Below, piece after piece: positions 45,579 to 56,149 of a DNA stretch of 64,000 nt. The position numbers and the translations under genes were made by a program. The stretch comes from Opitutia bacterium (lineage in GTDB: Bacteria > Verrucomicrobiota > Verrucomicrobiia > Opitutales > Seribacteraceae): assembly GCA_002730975.1 (NCBI GenBank), contig PCBO01000136.1, positions 1 through 64,000 of the forward strand, read 5' to 3'. The notes under the pieces were generated by a model. That model saw only the letters and a program-made list of their open reading frames with translations, ran no database searches and was not told where the DNA came from. How positions within the stretch are numbered: the stretch's first letter is position 1; each line of letters begins with the position of its first letter.

Positions 45579-47333
45579 ATGAACAGCATCTCGTCCATCG
45601 TGAAGCATGTCTCCAACTCCAAGTTGAAGACTATTCGCCGTCGCTTTCAAAAGCTATACGGAGCCACCATCGCGGATCAATTGCTTGAGCGTTTTTATCA
45701 CACCCTCGGTCGCTATGGAGTGGGAATCGATGCTCGCCGAACTGAGCGTTTGTGGAGCGAGAAAGACGCCGTCCTCATTACCTACGCCGACATGGTTCAC
45801 CAAAAAGGCGAGGTTCCCCTCGAGACTCTTCGCCACTTTTGCACTGAACATTTGAAAGGCGTCTTTTCGATAGTACATCTTCTACCTTTTTATCCTTGGT
45901 CTTCCGATGATGGTTTTTCCGTCATCGATTACCGTGAGGTGGACGAGCGCTACGGGGATTGGAAGCATGTTCGGAGCTTTTCATGCGAGTTCGATCTAAT
46001 GTTCGATCTCGTCCTCAATCACTGTTCCGCAGGAAGCGACTGGTTTCTCGATTATGTCTCCGGAATTGAACCTGCTATCAACTATATTCGGGAAGAAGAC
46101 CCGGAGGCCGATCTCACCGCTGTAGTAAGACCCCGTCCTTCTCCTCTTTTGACTCCGACCTCCACCCGTGATGGAGAGCGTTACGTATGGACTACTTTCA
46201 GTTCCGATCAAGTTGATCTTGATTGGCGTTCTCCCGATCTGCTCTTTGAGTTTCTCGACATTGTAATGAAATACGTCTCCGAAGGTAGTCGGATTCTTCG
46301 ATTGGACGCAGTGGCTTTTCTTTGGAAAGAAATCGGAACAAACTGCTTGCATCTGCCCGAGACTCACGAAGTGGTTAAGCTCTTGCGAAACTTTCTGGAA
46401 GTCATAGCCCCCGACGTCATCATCTTGACAGAAACGAATGTTCCGCATGATGAAAACATAAGTTATTTTGGTCGAGGTGACGAGGCTCACATGGTTTATC
46501 AGTTCACTCTACCTCCCCTTGTCTTGCACGGTTTGCTCAAGGGCACCGCCTCTCACCTTACTCAATGGGCGACCCATTTGGCACCTCCGCCTCGCGGTTG
46601 CTCCTTCCTCAATTTTACGGCCAGTCACGATGGAATCGGAGTTCGCCCTCTAGAGGGTATACTTTCACAGGAAGAAATTCTTGCCCTTGCCGAAATGGTG
46701 AAGGCACGTGGAGGGCTTGTCTCGACGAGGTCCCTTGAAGACGGTTCCGAGGTTCCCTACGAATTAAATGTTACCTACTTCGGCGCCCTTGCCGAACCTG
46801 CAGACGATGCAATTGGAGAAGCTCGTTTCCTTTGTTCCCAAGCGGTGGCTCTTGCCATGCAAGGGGTTCCGGCTGTTTATTTCCATTCTCTCACCGCAAC
46901 TCCCAACTATATTCAAGGGGTTGAGCAAACCAGTCAAAATCGGACTATCAACCGTCGAAAATGGGAGCACGGTGAACTTACGGAACTTCTCGATGATGCC
47001 GAATGTCACTGTGCTCGGGTTTTCGACTGGTTGTCGCGTCTGATGCGACGTCGGTCATCCTGTCCTGCTTTTCATCCTGATGCGCCTCAGGTCATTAAGG
47101 AATACGGTTCCGATTTGTTTGCCATCGAGCGCACATCTCTCGACGGTTCTCAAACTGTTATTTGTCTCTTCAATTTCACGAATGCTCCTGTTCCTATTCC
47201 CTCAGTAATCGCCATTGAGGAACTTTTTCCCGATGGTAAAGTTCGTGATCTTGCCGGCGGTTCCGATATTGCCATTGGTCCGGATGGTATTGTTCTAAGG
47301 CCTTACCAGACTCTTTGGCTTGCTCCACTTTGA
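45579..47333 (+). CDS. GH13 subfamily 18 sugar phosphorylase (glucosylglycerate phosphorylase candidate)
   Basis: A 584-residue alpha-amylase-fold phosphorylase of the sucrose phosphorylase group. Catalytic residues are Asp243 in RLDAVAFLWKE (nucleophile) and Glu285 in ILTETNVPHDENISYFG (acid/base); the third acidic residue is in NFTASHDGIGVRPLEG. Other marks are VHLLPFYPWSSDDGFSVIDY and LNHCSAGSDWFLDY. E. coli YcjM, of the same subfamily, is a glucosylglycerate phosphorylase, and the GpgS gene nearby makes that substrate the best guess, releasing glucose 1-phosphate and glycerate. Sucrose or glucosylglycerol remain possible. The GT4 stop is 9 nt upstream, and rsmE starts inside its stop. Confidence 0.86.
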   Translation: MNSISSIVKHVSNSKLKTIRRRFQKLYGATIADQLLERFYHTLGRYGVGIDARRTERLWSEKDAVLITYADMVHQKGEVPLETLRHFCTEHLKGVFSIVHLLPFYPWSSDDGFSVIDYREVDERYGDWKHVRSFSCEFDLMFDLVLNHCSAGSDWFLDYVSGIEPAINYIREEDPEADLTAVVRPRPSPLLTPTSTRDGERYVWTTFSSDQVDLDWRSPDLLFEFLDIVMKYVSEGSRILRLDAVAFLWKEIGTNCLHLPETHEVVKLLRNFLEVIAPDVIILTETNVPHDENISYFGRGDEAHMVYQFTLPPLVLHGLLKGTASHLTQWATHLAPPPRGCSFLNFTASHDGIGVRPLEGILSQEEILALAEMVKARGGLVSTRSLEDGSEVPYELNVTYFGALAEPADDAIGEARFLCSQAVALAMQGVPAVYFHSLTATPNYIQGVEQTSQNRTINRRKWEHGELTELLDDAECHCARVFDWLSRLMRRRSSCPAFHPDAPQVIKEYGSDLFAIERTSLDGSQTVICLFNFTNAPVPIPSVIAIEELFPDGKVRDLAGGSDIAIGPDGIVLRPYQTLWLAPL

Positions 47334-48049
47334 ACCTTTTACTCTTTGAAGATCAGGCAAACGAAATCCTTTTGCCCACTGATGATCCTCGGACTATACA
47401 TGTCCGAAAGGTATTGAGGCGCCTACCTGGAGACGGCTTCGACGTTGCCGTTGTAAATGGTCCTAAGGGCAAAGCGACCATCTTAGATGACGGTACCGCC
47501 GGATTGCGTCTTTCTTTTCTTTGGCAAGAAAGTATTGTTGATGATCGAAATCCAATTCGTCTTCTTGTCGGTCTTCCAAGACCGCAGACTGCTCGTAAAA
47601 TTCTACAGCAAGCAGCCAGTTTAGGTGTCGAGGCAATGGACTTTTTTGGAACAGATAAAGGCGAGCCTTCGTATGCCGACAGCAAACTTTGGAGTTCGGG
47701 CGAGTGGCGTCGCCACCTCCTTCGTGGAGTCGAACAAGCTTTCTCTTCCTTTCTTCCCATCGTGAATCATAATCCTAACCTCGAGGCCGCTCTTGCCGAA
47801 TTATCTGGTTCCTGTAGCCGTTTCGCCCTCGATGTATACGAAGCCGCTTCACCGCTGACTTTTGCCGATTCTGGCCTTCCGCGAACCCCGTGCCGGCTCG
47901 CCGTTGGCCCCGAACGTGGTTGGTCCGAACAAGAACGTGAACTCCTGAGAGAATCTGAATTCGAATTTCGCCATCTTGGTCATCGTGTTCTTCGCGAAGA
48001 AACTGCCTGCGTTGTCGCGCTAGGAATACTTTCCTCTGGGTGCTGGTGA
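47330..48049 (+). CDS. RsmE-family 16S rRNA (uracil-N3)-methyltransferase, divergent copy
   Basis: A 239-residue SPOUT-fold protein of the RsmE type, which methylates U1498 of 16S rRNA. The knot region is present (CRLAVGPERGWSEQERELL, then FRHLGHRVLREETACVVALGIL). The N-terminal PUA-like domain shows HVRKVLRRLPGDGFDVAVVNG. The match to the canonical GPEGG motif is altered to GPERG. The start is placed at TTG 47330, whose TTGA overlaps the phosphorylase stop at 47331-47333. It may be a second, specialised enzyme, as a more canonical RsmE lies 0.7 kb downstream. Confidence 0.8.
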   Translation: MNLLLFEDQANEILLPTDDPRTIHVRKVLRRLPGDGFDVAVVNGPKGKATILDDGTAGLRLSFLWQESIVDDRNPIRLLVGLPRPQTARKILQQAASLGVEAMDFFGTDKGEPSYADSKLWSSGEWRRHLLRGVEQAFSSFLPIVNHNPNLEAALAELSGSCSRFALDVYEAASPLTFADSGLPRTPCRLAVGPERGWSEQERELLRESEFEFRHLGHRVLREETACVVALGILSSGCW

Positions 48050-48053
48050 AGAT

Positions 48054-48626
48054 TCAGGCGGAAGTCGGTCGAAAAAAAGCCAAGTTTGGCGCTCCCTTGC
48101 GAGCTTTTCCCAAACGACGTTCGCATTGCCAGCCTTCCGCATCTAGCTCGACTTCACCTGGTAATTCAACAATGACGAGGGAACTTTTGTTCGCCAGACC
48201 TTCCACAAGTAACCGAGCAAATAGTTTTGGAGCAATCTTCGTGAGAATAAGGTAGGGGGGGTCTGCGAAAATTAGGTCGAATGGTCCTGCTCGGCAAGGT
48301 TTGGCTCGGAGGGCATCACCGCTTATCACTTCAAAACTTTTCGGAGAAACGTTGGCGCTCTTGCACACAGCAATCAGATTTTTTTGAATGCATGATGTCG
48401 TGTGCACGTCTTGCTCGATGAATGCTCCACTCTCAGCTCCGCGGCTGAGTGCCTCCAATCCATAGGAACCTGTTCCCGCAAAGAGATCGAGGAATTTCGC
48501 ACCTGACACCAGATCTCCCAATGAGGAAAACAAACGTTCGCGAACTGGTTCTGCCGCAGGTCGCAAGGGACTACCTTTCGGTATTCTCAGCTTTATACCT
48601 TTGGCTTTCCCTCCTGAAATCCTCAT
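48054..48626 (-). CDS. rsmD: 16S rRNA (guanine-N2)-methyltransferase RsmD
   Basis: Methylates G966 of 16S rRNA. The SAM site is KFLDLFAGTGSYGLEALSRGAE and the catalytic motif is DLIFADPPYL. The N-terminus MRISGGKAKGIKLRIP and the VRERLFSSLGD segment are typical. 190 residues is normal. It is convergent with the divergent rsmE copy, with only 4 nt between the stops. Often next to coaD in other bacteria, but here coaD is 24 kb away. Confidence 0.93.
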   Translation of the reverse strand: MRISGGKAKGIKLRIPKGSPLRPAAEPVRERLFSSLGDLVSGAKFLDLFAGTGSYGLEALSRGAESGAFIEQDVHTTSCIQKNLIAVCKSANVSPKSFEVISGDALRAKPCRAGPFDLIFADPPYLILTKIAPKLFARLLVEGLANKSSLVIVELPGEVELDAEGWQCERRLGKARKGAPNLAFFRPTSA

Positions 48627-48692
48627 CTAATTAGAAGCTTCATTGAACGTCGAAGTGGAACTGCCTGACTCAAAAAATACATTTTCATGGTA

Positions 48693-48720
48693 TTGAGATG
48701 TTTGAATGCCCTGATATAAT
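48693..48720 (+). promoter_or_regulatory. Strong sigma-70-like promoter upstream of rsmE
   Basis: TTGAGA (48693-48698) and a perfect TATAAT (48715-48720) with a 16-bp spacer, pointing toward the plus-strand rsmE gene. It lies in the 163-bp gap between divergent rsmD and rsmE and probably drives rsmE together with the vWA-like and DsbD-like genes that follow closely. Confidence 0.6.
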
Positions 48721-48789
48721 TATCTGGTTACAAATGCACTCTCTTTAAACGGTGCTTTTTGCTGTACTCGTTGTCAGATTCCTGCAGAA

Positions 48790-49551
48790 ATGGTCAATCG
48801 CATTCGACAAACAATGAGCCGGACCTACCGAGTATTCGCAACGGATGACCTTCCATTGGAGGAAGGCATGTTTCACTTGCAGGGAGAAGAAAGTCGTCAC
48901 CTTTCGAGAGTCTTGCGGGTTAGAGTGGGAAATGCTGTCGAGGTCTTGGACGGGCGAGGGACAATTTTTCGGACTGAGGTCGTTGGCGTGAACGGAAGGG
49001 TTGTTGTTCTGAAAAATCTTGAATCTGTTCAGGTCGCTAAACCTCGGGTGGCCTTCGACCTCGGGGTCTCTTTGCCAAAGGGTGGAGGAATGGATGATAT
49101 CGTTCGGCAGCTCACTGAACTCGGAGTTTCGTTTATCAGCCCTCTATTTTCGGAACATGGCGATGTTGCGAACGTGGAGCATCGGGCAGAGGCCAAGATG
49201 GGTAAGTGGTCGCGGATTTCGTCAGAGGCTTGCAAGCAGTCGGGGAATCCCTGGGCGCCCGTGATCCGAGAACCTCGCTCTTTCGATCGGTGGTTACGAG
49301 AATTACCTGCCGGTGGCGTTCGTTTGATCGGTTGCCTTGGAGCTAATGCAGTTTCAGTATCTTCTGTGTCGAAGAGTTTCGCAACGGACATTGCTTTTGC
49401 GATCGGTCCGGAAGGTGGATTTTCCGAAGTGGAGAAAGCAATTGCCGAAGATGCGGGGTTTGTTCCCGTCTGTTTAGGACCCCATACTATGAAAGTAGGG
49501 ACGGCGGCTATTTGCGCATTGGCAGTTGCATGCGAAAAATTTGGCGTTTAA
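48790..49551 (+). CDS. rsmE: 16S rRNA (uracil-N3)-methyltransferase RsmE, canonical copy
   Basis: Makes m3U1498 in the decoding region of 16S rRNA. The signature GPEGGFSEVEKAIAED, the preceding helix RISSEACKQSGNPWAPVI and the end FVPVCLGPHTMKVGTAAICALAVAC fit the family well, as does the N-terminal HLSRVLRVRVGNAVEVLDG. It may start at ATG 48790 or at 48814 (MSRTYRVF), which is closer to relatives. It is transcribed from the promoter at 48693-48720 and is followed after 25 nt by the vWA-like gene. Confidence 0.93.
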   Translation: MVNRIRQTMSRTYRVFATDDLPLEEGMFHLQGEESRHLSRVLRVRVGNAVEVLDGRGTIFRTEVVGVNGRVVVLKNLESVQVAKPRVAFDLGVSLPKGGGMDDIVRQLTELGVSFISPLFSEHGDVANVEHRAEAKMGKWSRISSEACKQSGNPWAPVIREPRSFDRWLRELPAGGVRLIGCLGANAVSVSSVSKSFATDIAFAIGPEGGFSEVEKAIAEDAGFVPVCLGPHTMKVGTAAICALAVACEKFGV

Positions 49552-49576
49552 TTATAATTATCTCAAACTGATTTTA

Positions 49577-51025
49577 ATGGCAAAGCATTTTAGTGGAGAA
49601 GAAAAACTGCGGATCGTACTGGAGTCGATCATTCGTGGTATATCTAAGGACGAGCAATGCAAGAAATACGAGTGCTCGGAAACCGATTTCGATGCATGGC
49701 GCGAACATCTTGTTACAAATGGTGGAAAAGTTTTCGAGCCAGGATACGGTATTGTTGCTAAGAAATCGATCCATCCTTCCAGTGGTGGATGGTTTTCCAA
49801 GTTCGTCCTTAGCTTCAGCATCTTAGTGAATATTGCTTTTGTGAGCGCTGTACTTGCATGGCAAATGAAATGGATCGATCTTGGAAGCTATTTACCCAAG
49901 TCTCAGGTCGCGTCCACAGCGGAACCCTCATCTCCTTCCATGTCCGGAACCGGTGTTAAGGGAGTCGAAACTTTGGAGTCACTTTCGCTTATGACCAAAT
50001 CTTCTACCGCCAAACAGAGCACTTTGTCTTCTTCTGGTGCGAGCTCGCGAACAGATTCTTCCCCGATGCCTGTTGTTTCGGTTCCGATCCCCTCTTCTAC
50101 AAAAGCACCGATGTATTCTGGGTTGGCTGGAAGACCTCGACCAACCTTCGAAATCGACGCTTTCGGAGTCCGTACACTTGGCCGTCAGATCGTTTTTGCC
50201 TTGGACGCGAGCGATTACATGACTCGAGGAAGTCGAGTTGGACAGTTTCGTGAATTGAAAGAAAAGTTACGATTGGCAATATCCAGACTTTCTGAAAAGA
50301 ATCACTTCAACTTATTAGTATTTCGCAACTTGCGGGAAATTGAAATGTTCGGAAAAACTATTCTTTTAGCCAATTCCACGAATAAAAGTCTTGCCTTGAA
50401 GTGGCTTAAGGAAATTGGAGAACCTTACGAGAAAAAGCAAGCTGCCTCAATTCGTCGTCCTAATGATAGGGACATCATGGATAAACCACCTCCGGGCACC
50501 GTAGGCCCTTGGTATGCCCTTTACTGTGCGATAAAAAACTATCACCCCGATGCAGTCTTTGTTTTGACTGGAGAATGCTCTTCGATGCGTCCTCAGGATT
50601 TTTCGTCCGTTGATTCCACAAAATCTGATTTAAGGAAAACAGGAGATCCCGATGATTTATTTAAATGGGAGTTACGGACAAAAACTCTTCGTCGCACAGC
50701 TGTCAAATGGCTGCTGGTTTCCATGAAAGCTGATGAGATGCCCCCCACAACACAAGACGAATTGGAGCTTCTCGCTTTGGCCCGTCTTCAAATGACGTTA
50801 CCACCCAAACCTCAAGTCTCATCCAGTGCTTCATGGCCATGGCGCGACGTTTATCAGAAGTTTCGTGACGCCTTGAACCATGGAGAGTCGGACCTGCCGA
50901 TCGTTCATTTCGTTGTTGCTTTACCCGAGGGCGTCACTTGGCCTGCGGATTTGTCAGATACTGCGGGTGAATTTGCACGCATGGCCAAAGGGCAATTAAT
51001 GTTCACCAATGCAACCCCTCCCTGA
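49577..51025 (+). CDS. Membrane protein with transposase-type HTH and vWA-like domain
   Basis: No function recognised. The 482-residue product has three parts. Residues about 4-55 (KHFSGEEKLRIVLESIIRG, ECSETDFDAWREHL) closely resemble the HTH of IS3-type transposase OrfA proteins. A single membrane helix follows at about 76-98 (FVLSFSILVNIAFVSAVLAW). After a Ser/Thr-rich linker, from about residue 195 there is a vWA-like Rossmann domain (GRQIVFALDASDYMTRGSRVGQFRELKEKLRLAI). The MIDAS DxSxS is degenerate (DASDY). It starts at ATG 49577; an in-frame start at 49526 overlaps rsmE. With no insertion sequence around it, the HTH is probably captured by the host. The DsbD-like gene follows after 15 nt. 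Confidence 0.7.
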   Translation: MAKHFSGEEKLRIVLESIIRGISKDEQCKKYECSETDFDAWREHLVTNGGKVFEPGYGIVAKKSIHPSSGGWFSKFVLSFSILVNIAFVSAVLAWQMKWIDLGSYLPKSQVASTAEPSSPSMSGTGVKGVETLESLSLMTKSSTAKQSTLSSSGASSRTDSSPMPVVSVPIPSSTKAPMYSGLAGRPRPTFEIDAFGVRTLGRQIVFALDASDYMTRGSRVGQFRELKEKLRLAISRLSEKNHFNLLVFRNLREIEMFGKTILLANSTNKSLALKWLKEIGEPYEKKQAASIRRPNDRDIMDKPPPGTVGPWYALYCAIKNYHPDAVFVLTGECSSMRPQDFSSVDSTKSDLRKTGDPDDLFKWELRTKTLRRTAVKWLLVSMKADEMPPTTQDELELLALARLQMTLPPKPQVSSSASWPWRDVYQKFRDALNHGESDLPIVHFVVALPEGVTWPADLSDTAGEFARMAKGQLMFTNATPP

Positions 51026-51040: not shown

Positions 51041-52417
51041 ATGAGGATCTCATCCGTGCCGTTACGGGTTTTCCCTAGACTTCTTTTACTGGGCATTCTG
51101 CAGTGTGGAATCGCATCGATTGCTTCTTCGGATACCGGTAGCAAAGCTTCAACCATTCCCGAAATAATCACTGACGATTATTCGACTTTGTGGGTACTTC
51201 TAGGTTTGGTTTTGGCATCTATGGCCACTTGGGTTTTTGGGCGTTGGGGTGGGCTTGCTGTGCCCCTCTCTACACGTCGGAAGGCTTGGCTCGTTTCTTT
51301 ATCTTTGTTGGCTAGTGGTGTTTGGCTTGGTTACCCTACGGAAAAGGATGATTTAAACGCATTAAAATGGGAGCAGTGGTCACCTGAGCGCGAACTCGAA
51401 TTGTTGGATTCGGGCAAGGCTGTGTATATCGATTTTACGGCTAAGTGGTGCATTTCGTGTCAAGTCAACAAGCGAGTGTTTTATCGTGAAGACGTAATAA
51501 GGAAAATTCGAGATCTCGAAATCACTCTTCTCAAAGCTGATTGGACAGATAAAGGACCTGTTATTCTGAATGCATTGCAAAAACACGGTAGAGTGGCGGT
51601 ACCACTCAATGTATATTATAAGTCATCCGGCGAAGGAGATCTTGTTTCCACTCCTATCCTTTTGCCTGAAGTGCTGACCAACTCTATTATTCTCGAAGTC
51701 CTTGAAACAGGTAAACCTTATTTCGAACGCAAAGAACTAGGATTCATTGGGATACTAGGTTTTGCCTTTATCGGAGGTCTAATCTTGAATTTAATGCCGT
51801 GCGTATTTCCTGTGCTTGGACTAAAAATCATGGGGTTTGTCAAACAGGCAGGTGAAGATAGGAAGAAGATTGCTCGTCACGGTTTTATTTTTACGGCTGG
51901 GGTTTTGATTTCTTTTTGGCTTTTAGTCGGTATTCTCTTGTGGTTGCGTAATACGATGAAGCAGGAATTGGGCTGGGGCTTTCAATTACAGGAACCCGGT
52001 TTCGTCTTTGTGTTGGCCCTTGTGCTCTTGATCTTCGCTTTGAGTCTGAGCGGTGTTTTCGAGATAGGTCTATCTCTTGCCGGGACGGGTTCCAAGCTCG
52101 TTCGACAATCAGGTTACGCGGGTTCATTCTTTTCGGGCGTACTTGCCGTGGTGGTTGCCACACCCTGTATGGCGCCTTTCCTGGGTGTCGCTGTGGGAGC
52201 GGCATTGGCGATGACGTGGTTCCCTGCCATTGCGGTGTTCACTTTTGTCGGATTGGGATTGGCCTTTCCCTATCTTCTCTTGTCCTTGATGCCGAATTTG
52301 ATAAGTCGATTACCCAAGCCAGGAGCTTGGATGGAATCTTTTAAGCAGGGGATGGCCTTTCCGATTTACGCTACGGTCGTCTGGCTTGTCTGGAACTTGT
52401 CTGCCCAACTAGCCTGA
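51041..52417 (+). CDS. Thiol-disulfide reductase of the DsbD type with permuted domain order
   Basis: A 458-residue protein with the parts of DsbD in unusual order. A signal-like start is followed by two membrane segments (about 47-67 and 82-98) and a thioredoxin domain with CISC (Cys137 and Cys140; VYIDFTAKWCISCQVNKRVF ... LLKADWTDKG). From about residue 233 comes the DsbD transmembrane domain, with its two redox cysteines in LNLMPCVFPV (Cys254) and ATPCMAPFLG (Cys376), ending at VVWLVWNLSAQLA. In canonical DsbD the thioredoxin part comes after this end. The protein should carry electrons across the membrane to periplasmic thiols. The ATG at 51041 is used rather than upstream GTG 51035. Confidence 0.8.
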   Translation: MRISSVPLRVFPRLLLLGILQCGIASIASSDTGSKASTIPEIITDDYSTLWVLLGLVLASMATWVFGRWGGLAVPLSTRRKAWLVSLSLLASGVWLGYPTEKDDLNALKWEQWSPERELELLDSGKAVYIDFTAKWCISCQVNKRVFYREDVIRKIRDLEITLLKADWTDKGPVILNALQKHGRVAVPLNVYYKSSGEGDLVSTPILLPEVLTNSIILEVLETGKPYFERKELGFIGILGFAFIGGLILNLMPCVFPVLGLKIMGFVKQAGEDRKKIARHGFIFTAGVLISFWLLVGILLWLRNTMKQELGWGFQLQEPGFVFVLALVLLIFALSLSGVFEIGLSLAGTGSKLVRQSGYAGSFFSGVLAVVVATPCMAPFLGVAVGAALAMTWFPAIAVFTFVGLGLAFPYLLLSLMPNLISRLPKPGAWMESFKQGMAFPIYATVVWLVWNLSAQLA

Positions 52418-52423
52418 AAAGAG

Positions 52424-52792
<369 letters not shown>

Positions 52793-54142
52793 TTATTGAA
52801 TACTGTAACCATTCTCGCCATGTGAAGCTTGGTCAAGCCCCTTCGTTTCATCATCTTCGGAAACCCGAATTCCACCTGTAATTGCTCCGACGATTTTAAC
52901 AATGACAAAGGTCGCCACCACCGAAAGCGCTATTGCAGCTAGACAGCCTTGGGCTTGTACGATTAATTGCTCGGTCCAAGTGAAGTAAGCTCCATCGCTT
53001 TCTTCCCCATGGCGGCTGATCCCTTGTCCGCCCAAGACTCCGAGTTGACCAAGGTAGGAAACCATCAGCGTTCCAAGTATGCCACCCACGCCGTGAACGG
53101 CCGCCACGTCAAGCGAGTCGTCTATGCCAAGCTTCTCTTTGATGAAACCGCAGGCGAAGTAGCAGACGATCCCTGCGGAGGCTCCGATGATGATCGCACC
53201 CATGGGACCGACAGCGCCGGAGGCAGGCGTGATTGTCGCTAGACCGGCGATAGTGCCGGTGACGATACCGACCAAGCCTGGCTTTCCGGTTTTTTTCCAC
53301 TCGATGAACATCCAGACCAAACTTGCAGTTGCCGCTGAAAGGTGGGTTACTAGCATTGCCATGCCTGCATTACCATCGGCTGCTCCGGCACTTCCTGCAT
53401 TGAAGCCAAACCATCCGACCCAAAGCATGGATGCTCCGATCATGACCATGCCTGGGTTGTGAGGAGGTTTTAGGTTTTTCGGATAACCATGCCTGCGTCC
53501 AAGCATCCAAGCTAGCGTCAGGGCAGATGCTCCGGCAGTTGCATGAACTACTATACCACCTGCAAAATCAATGACGCCGGCTTTCATCAACCATCCGCCT
53601 CCCCAAACCCAATAACAAACCGGGCAATAAACGACTATCAACCACAAGGCAGTGAAGAGCATGACCGCTGTGAACTTGATCCGTTCAACAAAGGCACCCA
53701 CGATCAGCCCCGGGGTGATAATGGCAAAGGTCATTTGGAAAATAACCCATACGGAAGAAGGGAATCCGTTGCTTTCCAAGCCCTCCTCCGTCAAGCCTTG
53801 GAGAAAAAATTGTTCCTTGCCGCCAATCCAGGATTTCCCACTTCCCTCCGTCAGAGCCAAGCTGTAACCGACGCAAACCCAAATTATGGAAGCCAGGCAG
53901 GCGATAGCGAAGCAATGCATGAGGACCGAGAGCACATTCTTGGACTGAACCAAGCCGCCGTAAAAGAGAGCGAGCCCTGGCAAGGTCATGAAAAGCACTA
54001 GAGCCGTAGCAGTTATCATCCATGCGGTGTTCCCCGGTTGGAGGGCAACTTCTTCCCCGTTGGGCTGGGCAAAGCCAGTCGCGTTCAAGAGTAGGAAAAC
54101 TAGGATGGCTAGGCCAACTTTAAGGCAAGGTAAGTTTTTCAT
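52793..54142 (-). CDS. amtB: Ammonium transporter AmtB (first copy)
   Basis: A 449-residue ammonium channel of the Amt/Rh family with an N-terminal signal-like segment (LVFLLLNATGFAQPNG) and about 11 transmembrane helices. Diagnostic segments are WMITATALVLFMTLPGLALFYGGLVQSKNVLSVLM, FQMTFAIITPGLIVGAFVERIKF, DFAGGIVVHATAGASAL (pore His), GWFGFNAGSAG, and DVAAVHGVGGILGTLM with the second pore His. The C-terminal cytoplasmic tail, where GlnK docks, ends GLDQASHGENGYS. A sigma-54-like promoter lies 40 bp upstream. Confidence 0.95.
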   Translation of the reverse strand: MKNLPCLKVGLAILVFLLLNATGFAQPNGEEVALQPGNTAWMITATALVLFMTLPGLALFYGGLVQSKNVLSVLMHCFAIACLASIIWVCVGYSLALTEGSGKSWIGGKEQFFLQGLTEEGLESNGFPSSVWVIFQMTFAIITPGLIVGAFVERIKFTAVMLFTALWLIVVYCPVCYWVWGGGWLMKAGVIDFAGGIVVHATAGASALTLAWMLGRRHGYPKNLKPPHNPGMVMIGASMLWVGWFGFNAGSAGAADGNAGMAMLVTHLSAATASLVWMFIEWKKTGKPGLVGIVTGTIAGLATITPASGAVGPMGAIIIGASAGIVCYFACGFIKEKLGIDDSLDVAAVHGVGGILGTLMVSYLGQLGVLGGQGISRHGEESDGAYFTWTEQLIVQAQGCLAAIALSVVATFVIVKIVGAITGGIRVSEDDETKGLDQASHGENGYSIQ

Positions 54143-54180
54143 AGATTGGATTGTTTTGGTTTTAGAAGACAGAACCCTAT

Positions 54181-54197
54181 TGCAAGAATCAAGCCAT
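54181..54197 (-). promoter_or_regulatory. Sigma-54-like promoter for the first amtB-glnK pair
   Basis: On the minus strand the sequence ATGGCTTGATTCTTGCA carries TGGC and TTGC with the correct 10-bp spacing between the GG and GC dinucleotides. It differs from the consensus TGGCACG-N4-TTGCA mainly in the positions after TGGC. It lies about 40 bp before the amtB start, leaving room for a short leader. Sequence match only. Confidence 0.55.
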
Positions 54198-54348
54198 GAA
54201 GAGCATTTATGCTGAAAATGAATAAAAATAATTCACTTAATTCGCTCTGTTGTATTTGTTTTGTCCACATTTAAACTTACTTTCGCAAAAATTACGGTTC
54301 GCAAAGAAATTAGTTTGGGTTGTTCGGTCTAGATTTATTAATATTATT

Positions 54349-56149
<1,801 letters not shown>

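Follow-up and report, generated by a model that had tools for sequence, protein, structure and literature searches.

The dsbD gene of the window

The window, by which we mean the whole 64,000-nucleotide stretch of Opitutales DNA that we analyzed, carries at positions 51041 to 52417 of its forward strand an open reading frame (ORF) of 458 codons plus a stop codon (458 aa). The frame encodes, in order, a signal peptide, TM7-8, a gamma thioredoxin module with a CISC motif, and TM1-6 (PF02683), without an alpha domain. DsbD is a membrane protein that exports electrons from bacteria and thereby keeps disulfide bonds in order. In its canonical form, a periplasmic alpha domain at the N-terminus is followed by a beta domain of eight TM helices and, at the C-terminus, a periplasmic gamma thioredoxin domain; electrons flow from thioredoxin to beta, to gamma, and then to alpha (PMC4460558). 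The window protein does not meet the canonical order of alpha, TM1-8, and gamma but presents it rotated. We assigned the following features.

51041 to 52417, forward strand: whole ORF, a permuted DsbD with no alpha domain (Pfam; blocks aligned to canonical relatives; module scan)
51041 to 51178, forward strand: signal-peptide-like N-terminus and short leader, residues 1-46 (hydrophobic stretch; low pLDDT)
51179 to 51349, forward strand: TM7-TM8 hairpin module, residues 47-103 (hhalign to canonical TM7-8; modelled helices 46-69 and 76-97)
51350 to 51718, forward strand: gamma thioredoxin module, residues 104-226 (PF13899; best PDB folds are DsbD gamma)
51449 to 51460, forward strand: CISC active site, Cys137 and Cys140 (CxxC in 41/41 rows of the same order)
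51719 to 51736, forward strand: new gamma-to-TM1 junction, not present in canonical DsbD (comparison with canonical relatives)
51737 to 52414, forward strand: TM1-6 module, a DsbD_TM/CcdA-like core, residues 233-458 (PF02683; positions 173-383 of the NF001419 DsbD profile)
51800 to 51802, forward strand: Cys254 in LNLMPCVFP, first membrane redox cysteine (motif in 41/41 rows of the same order)
52166 to 52168, forward strand: Cys376 in ATPCMAP, second membrane redox cysteine (motif in 41/41 rows of the same order)

The start at 51041 is backed by a methionine conserved in three congeners. Pfam matched Thioredoxin_7 at residues 110-193 and then DsbD_TM at residues 238-450 (PF02683, above the cut-off), and it found no alpha domain (PF11412) in the ORF. 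A gamma thioredoxin with CxxC is thus present by PF13899 and by PDB fold matches, as is a DsbD_TM core with one redox cysteine per half. The count of eight TM helices rests on TM7-8 homology, TM1-6, and the helices in the model and is a prediction only. Residues 1-46 evolve fast, with a dN/dS of about 0.5-0.6 versus 0.05-0.3 elsewhere in the protein.

The original prediction, made from the sequence alone, had described a DsbD with rotated domains at this locus; that observation is confirmed, and its interpretation is supported. It had also placed CISC in an N-terminal thioredoxin with Cys254 and Cys376 behind it and had stated that all redox cysteines are kept. Both claims held: CISC is at Cys137/Cys140, and the membrane cysteines are Cys254 and Cys376, as it had given them. 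The protein does end at WLVWNLSAQLA, as it had said, and in canonical relatives this is the point just ahead of the start of TM7. The break, which it had placed between the last two parts of the canonical protein, needed refinement: it lies between TM6 and TM7, within the canonical eight-helix membrane domain.

The dsbD stop codon lies 6 bases before the end of the next gene, and by eye we saw no TM7-8 remnant downstream of it. Two tandem glnB-amtB pairs lie at 52424 to 56149; the second amtB is only ~30% identical in other genera of the family and seems replaced or diverged. Immediately upstream of dsbD, at 49526 to 51025, is a gene whose product is kept beside dsbD in the family (about 28-78% identity), has no Pfam match, and looks von Willebrand A-like by eye. 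At 47315 to 49551, an RsmD-like gene on the opposite strand has an RsmE-like rRNA methyltransferase gene on either side, each matching PF04452, an arrangement that is conserved in the family.

The rotated order is family-wide and under purifying selection

We searched the window protein against 92 related genomes. Canonical relatives matched it as two abutting blocks in swapped order; in one of them (G043), a match to query residues 238-457 was followed directly by one to residues 45-224, with zero bases between. A module scan of the loci gave the same swapped order. TM1-6 of the window protein is ~47-65% identical to that of canonical Opitutales relatives. The short TM7-8 hairpin is a potential weak point of the case for permutation. 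A TM7-8 family profile, built from 25 permuted proteins, matched canonical TM7-8 by hhalign with a probability of 99.6 (E=1.5e-23), while five TM1-6 blocks run as controls against the TM7-8 profile all gave probabilities of <1%.

Structure prediction agreed with the alignments. AlphaFold2 modelled the window protein with pLDDT 81 and pTM 0.72 and the beta-gamma part of a canonical relative with pLDDT 85 and pTM 0.77; the two models contain the same elements in rotated order. The top PDB fold matches of the window model are the DsbD gamma structures 2fwf, 4ip1, and 1uc7. A search of the gamma sequence against the PDB gave weak matches only, DsbD among them.

The three congeners have the same order as the window protein, at 82-84% identity. 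In all, we found TM7-8/gamma/TM1-6 in 31 genomes of the family, including the window's, and in 26 of these beyond the three congeners it is one open frame with no internal stop. Among the named records with this order are metagenome-assembled genomes (MAGs) that came out of several independent projects. Among the congeners, dN/dS was 0.05-0.24 for gamma, 0.09-0.32 for TM7-8, and 0.05-0.07 for TM1-6, and within the genus dN was greater for gamma than for TM1-6. CxxC and both membrane-cysteine motifs were present in all 41 rows with the window's order, a count that includes some genomes fetched twice. Taken together, these data show that the order TM7-8, gamma, TM1-6 is real, family-wide, and under purifying selection, with the four redox cysteines retained. 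The term "circular permutation" fits the beta-gamma unit only, since alpha, where present, stays N-terminal. In the one remaining genome (G015; loci L115 and L038), an apparent frameshift breaks the permuted dsbD at a point between the TM7-8 and gamma modules, and whether this is a sequencing error or a pseudogene is undecided.

The three checks that the original prediction had proposed were thereby run: aligned separately, the parts match canonical domains in swapped order; in structure prediction, the thioredoxin part best matches DsbD gamma structures; and the same order occurs in 30 other genomes of the family. It would have been refuted by a missing or frameshifted part, but the order runs through a single unbroken frame in the congeners and in other genomes of the family. 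It would also have been refuted by an alpha-type N-terminal region, but that region matches gamma, and relatives carry alpha as a distinct piece at the N-terminus. Its claim of a circular permutation held for the beta-gamma unit. It had not mentioned the lack of PF11412 in the ORF, the alpha domain ahead of the permuted part in most relatives, or the third order found elsewhere.

We compared the protein with known systems. It shares TM1-6, TM7-8, gamma, and the redox cysteines with DsbD (protein-disulfide reductase; PRK00293/NF001419; PF11412-PF02683-PF13899), from which it differs in being rotated and, in its genus, in lacking alpha. It scored 68.5 bits with NF001419 against a cut-off of 330, and annotation by profile may score permuted DsbDs that far below the cut-off. 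Like CcdA, it has a TM core with two redox cysteines and no alpha; however, CcdA is the beta membrane domain only (PMC4460558), and the window protein has gamma in the same ORF, so it does not qualify as a TM core alone. TsoB and ScsB also have a DsbD-type TM domain. The TsoB profile (NF045694) matches TM1-6 of the window protein, but in two pieces and with 110 of 805 bits, far under the cut-off. The large N-terminal domain of ScsB is missing, with ~46 residues preceding TM7, as judged from length and the model; no ScsB profile was run. The window protein has the core features of DsbD but neither its order nor its alpha domain. Our search of the open-access literature, which did not extend to subscription papers, turned up no account of a permuted DsbD.

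The alpha domain and the proposed function

Proteins of the window's genus (g1) are ~458 aa long and lack alpha, and most others of its family (f1) are ~720 aa long and carry alpha (PF11412) ahead of the permuted part. We concluded that the window's genus lost the fused alpha domain. Two permuted DsbDs (L013 and L015) have a shortened region before TM7, where alpha would lie, and a total length of 615-626 aa; they could represent a stage towards that loss.

The window's genome has a single PF11412 ORF, which stands alone on another contig (L031:1066-1908, contig 8). PF11412 occurs only stand-alone in G000 and G003, and G003 has a close relative of L031. In the g2, g3, and g4 genomes that we checked, fused and stand-alone copies are both present. 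L031, L146, and L143 are stand-alone secreted DsbD_N (alpha-like) proteins with an unusual cysteine pattern, CGPEPKQCC. We considered whether L031 is the detached alpha of DsbD and rejected this as the simplest account: G010 has both a relative of L031 (L143) and a fused alpha, and therefore L031 is probably an older separate gene and not a detached domain. The alpha tree did not include fused alphas. It remains possible that L031 is a partner of the alpha-less permuted DsbD.

The window protein is likely a working DsbD-type thiol reductase with a circularly permuted beta-gamma unit, although its activity is inferred, with no biochemistry. We infer a working DsbD/CcdA-type reductase because the predicted topology is preserved. 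Cytoplasmic thioredoxin would reduce the membrane cysteine pair Cys254/Cys376 of the TM1-6 core, and electrons would then go to the periplasmic CISC (Cys137/Cys140) of gamma and onward to periplasmic acceptors. Without alpha, gamma may pass electrons directly to separate periplasmic proteins, possibly via L031, but the acceptor is not identified. Because TM7-8 forms a hairpin and the TM1-6 bundle has an even number of helices, moving either one would leave the orientation of gamma and of the core unchanged, and gamma is predicted to be periplasmic in every order. The Arg/Lys-rich TM7-TM8 loop (GRWGGLAVPLSTRRKAW) is expected to be cytoplasmic in all orders. Sidedness would thus be unaffected by rotation because the moved units have even numbers of TM helices and this basic loop stays cytoplasmic.

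Module orders, their history, and rival explanations

We call TM1-6, TM7-8, gamma order A; gamma, TM1-6, TM7-8 order B; and TM7-8, gamma, TM1-6 order C. Across Opitutales, Verrucomicrobiota, and the other phyla with matches, order A is the general one. Order C was found only in f1, in genera g1, g2, and g4. Order B, as alpha, gamma, TM1-6, TM7-8, was found in f1 genus g3 (G006 and G009) and in about 36 genomes, counted by hand from the survey table, of another Opitutales family (f19). The gamma-first loci of the two families are L112, L113, L135-L140, L040-L042, and L114, and by eye we saw no TM7-8 remnant between alpha and gamma of these proteins. Alpha, wherever present, is always N-terminal, and the cyclic order TM1-6, TM7-8, gamma is unbroken in all of about 130 loci. 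All three rotations of the DsbD core therefore occur within Opitutales.

In the concatenated tree, order C forms one clade (96/87) whose sister is order B of f1 (family 100/99), and order B of f19 lies elsewhere. A single clade of all gamma-first genes was rejected (p=0.0003), and a single clade of B plus C was not rejected (p=0.154). Families with order A separate f1 from f19 in the rpoB tree. Two canonical-order f19 genomes (G077 and G091; loci L183 and L184) nest inside the f19 order B clade, and their genus contains both orders; an f19 gamma-first clade without these canonical members was rejected (p=4e-9). The nested genes may reflect reversal, repeated gain, or exchange. Since f19 order B is separate from f1 order B and canonical genes nest within it, the order changed several times. 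The gene trees were built on about 400 columns. Transfer of the gene between families is not excluded. The gamma-only and TM1-6-only trees both group f1; therefore, the modules moved within one gene lineage, and no foreign part was gained.

The f1 gene adjoins glnB, amtB, and aspS in g1, g2, and g4 and also in the order B genome G009 (L189), although aspS falls within the compared stretch for only some f1 genomes. The presence of the gamma-first form and the window's form beside the same genes suggests stepwise rotation in place. Among f19 genomes of differing order, we found no common neighbours in the stretches compared. The simplest path would run from A through B to C, the last module of the beta-gamma unit having moved to its front one module at a time. 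The placing of B before C is inferred and rests on two MAGs (G006 and G009, the latter with 7% contamination). The route may have been a partial tandem duplication with subsequent loss, like that put forward for VKOR/DsbB (PMC4555120); this is only inferred, since none of the about 130 loci proved to be an intermediate carrying a module twice.

Four other explanations deserve consideration. A canonical gene could have been misjoined in the MAG: the window's assembly has 152 contigs and 91% completeness, and MAG misjoins happen. However, the same order in one open frame recurs in the three congeners and the 26 other genomes of the family, independent projects yield it, flanking genes are shared across the genomes that have it, and dN/dS is far under 1 in every module. 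The independent genomes rule out the artefact and frameshift readings, and we regard a misassembly as virtually excluded. Alternatively, the protein could be a new fusion and not a permutation, in which a CcdA-like TM1-6 acquired an unrelated TM-hairpin-thioredoxin N-terminus and shed its original C-terminal part. Both thioredoxin domains and TM hairpins are widespread, and it is plausible for thioredoxin-like domains to fuse with CcdA-type cores. Against this, the hairpin matches canonical TM7-8 specifically, TM7-8 and gamma retain their canonical mutual order, both module trees show the family as a single group, and gamma matches DsbD gamma folds best, all of which makes such a fusion most improbable.

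Two further alternatives accept the permutation, and neither can be dismissed. The alpha-less protein could feed a single partner in the manner of CcdA, for instance in cytochrome c maturation, and no longer act as a general DsbD. This is consistent with the absence of alpha across the window's genus, with the excess of gamma dN over TM1-6 dN there, and with the view in the literature that CcdA, which lacks alpha and gamma, serves cytochrome c maturation only (PMC4460558). Yet gamma is retained and constrained (dN/dS 0.05-0.24), and the neighbours glnB, amtB, and rsmE give no pathway hint, so we lean modestly away from a changed role. Finally, orders C and B could have arisen separately from canonical DsbD, for example from one tandem-duplicated ancestor by different deletions. 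Both forms would follow directly from such an ancestor, a route put forward for VKOR/DsbB (PMC4555120), and the tree leaves the ancestral order of f1 unsettled. However, the gamma-first form is the sister of the window's form, in the same family and with the same neighbours; one more rotation explains it, and no duplicated form was found. We find a single jump the slightly weaker account.

We thus prefer a working DsbD whose beta-gamma unit was rotated stepwise. A bolder reading, to which we give a slight preference, is that DsbD order rotates repeatedly in Opitutales, with all three cyclic orders used and at least four changes: a shift of gamma to the first position in each of two families, another rotation that produced order C, and a return to canonical order or further gains in f19. 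This would be a natural experiment in the permutation of a polytopic membrane enzyme, a multi-helix protein reshuffled by evolution more than once. Few natural circular permutations of helical membrane proteins have been documented, and the authors of the VKOR/DsbB study called theirs the first report of one (PMC4555120). The two cases are alike in that both concern helical membrane thiol oxidoreductases and circular permutation, with TM helix pairs moved and duplication and deletion proposed. The VKOR/DsbB relation is ancient and was inferred from the folds of distant families, whereas the DsbD relatives are alignable and show three extant rotations in one order of bacteria. Because permuted and unpermuted DsbDs are close and alignable, tolerated breaks and movable units can be read directly: the breaks are TM6/TM7 and TM8/gamma, and the moved units are an even-numbered TM block and a periplasmic domain.

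A separate observation concerns G009, in which a 1563-aa open frame (G009:C47:6514-10434) shows several weak scattered rpoB matches alongside a normal rpoB; it may be a divergent RNA polymerase-like gene or lie on a foreign contig.
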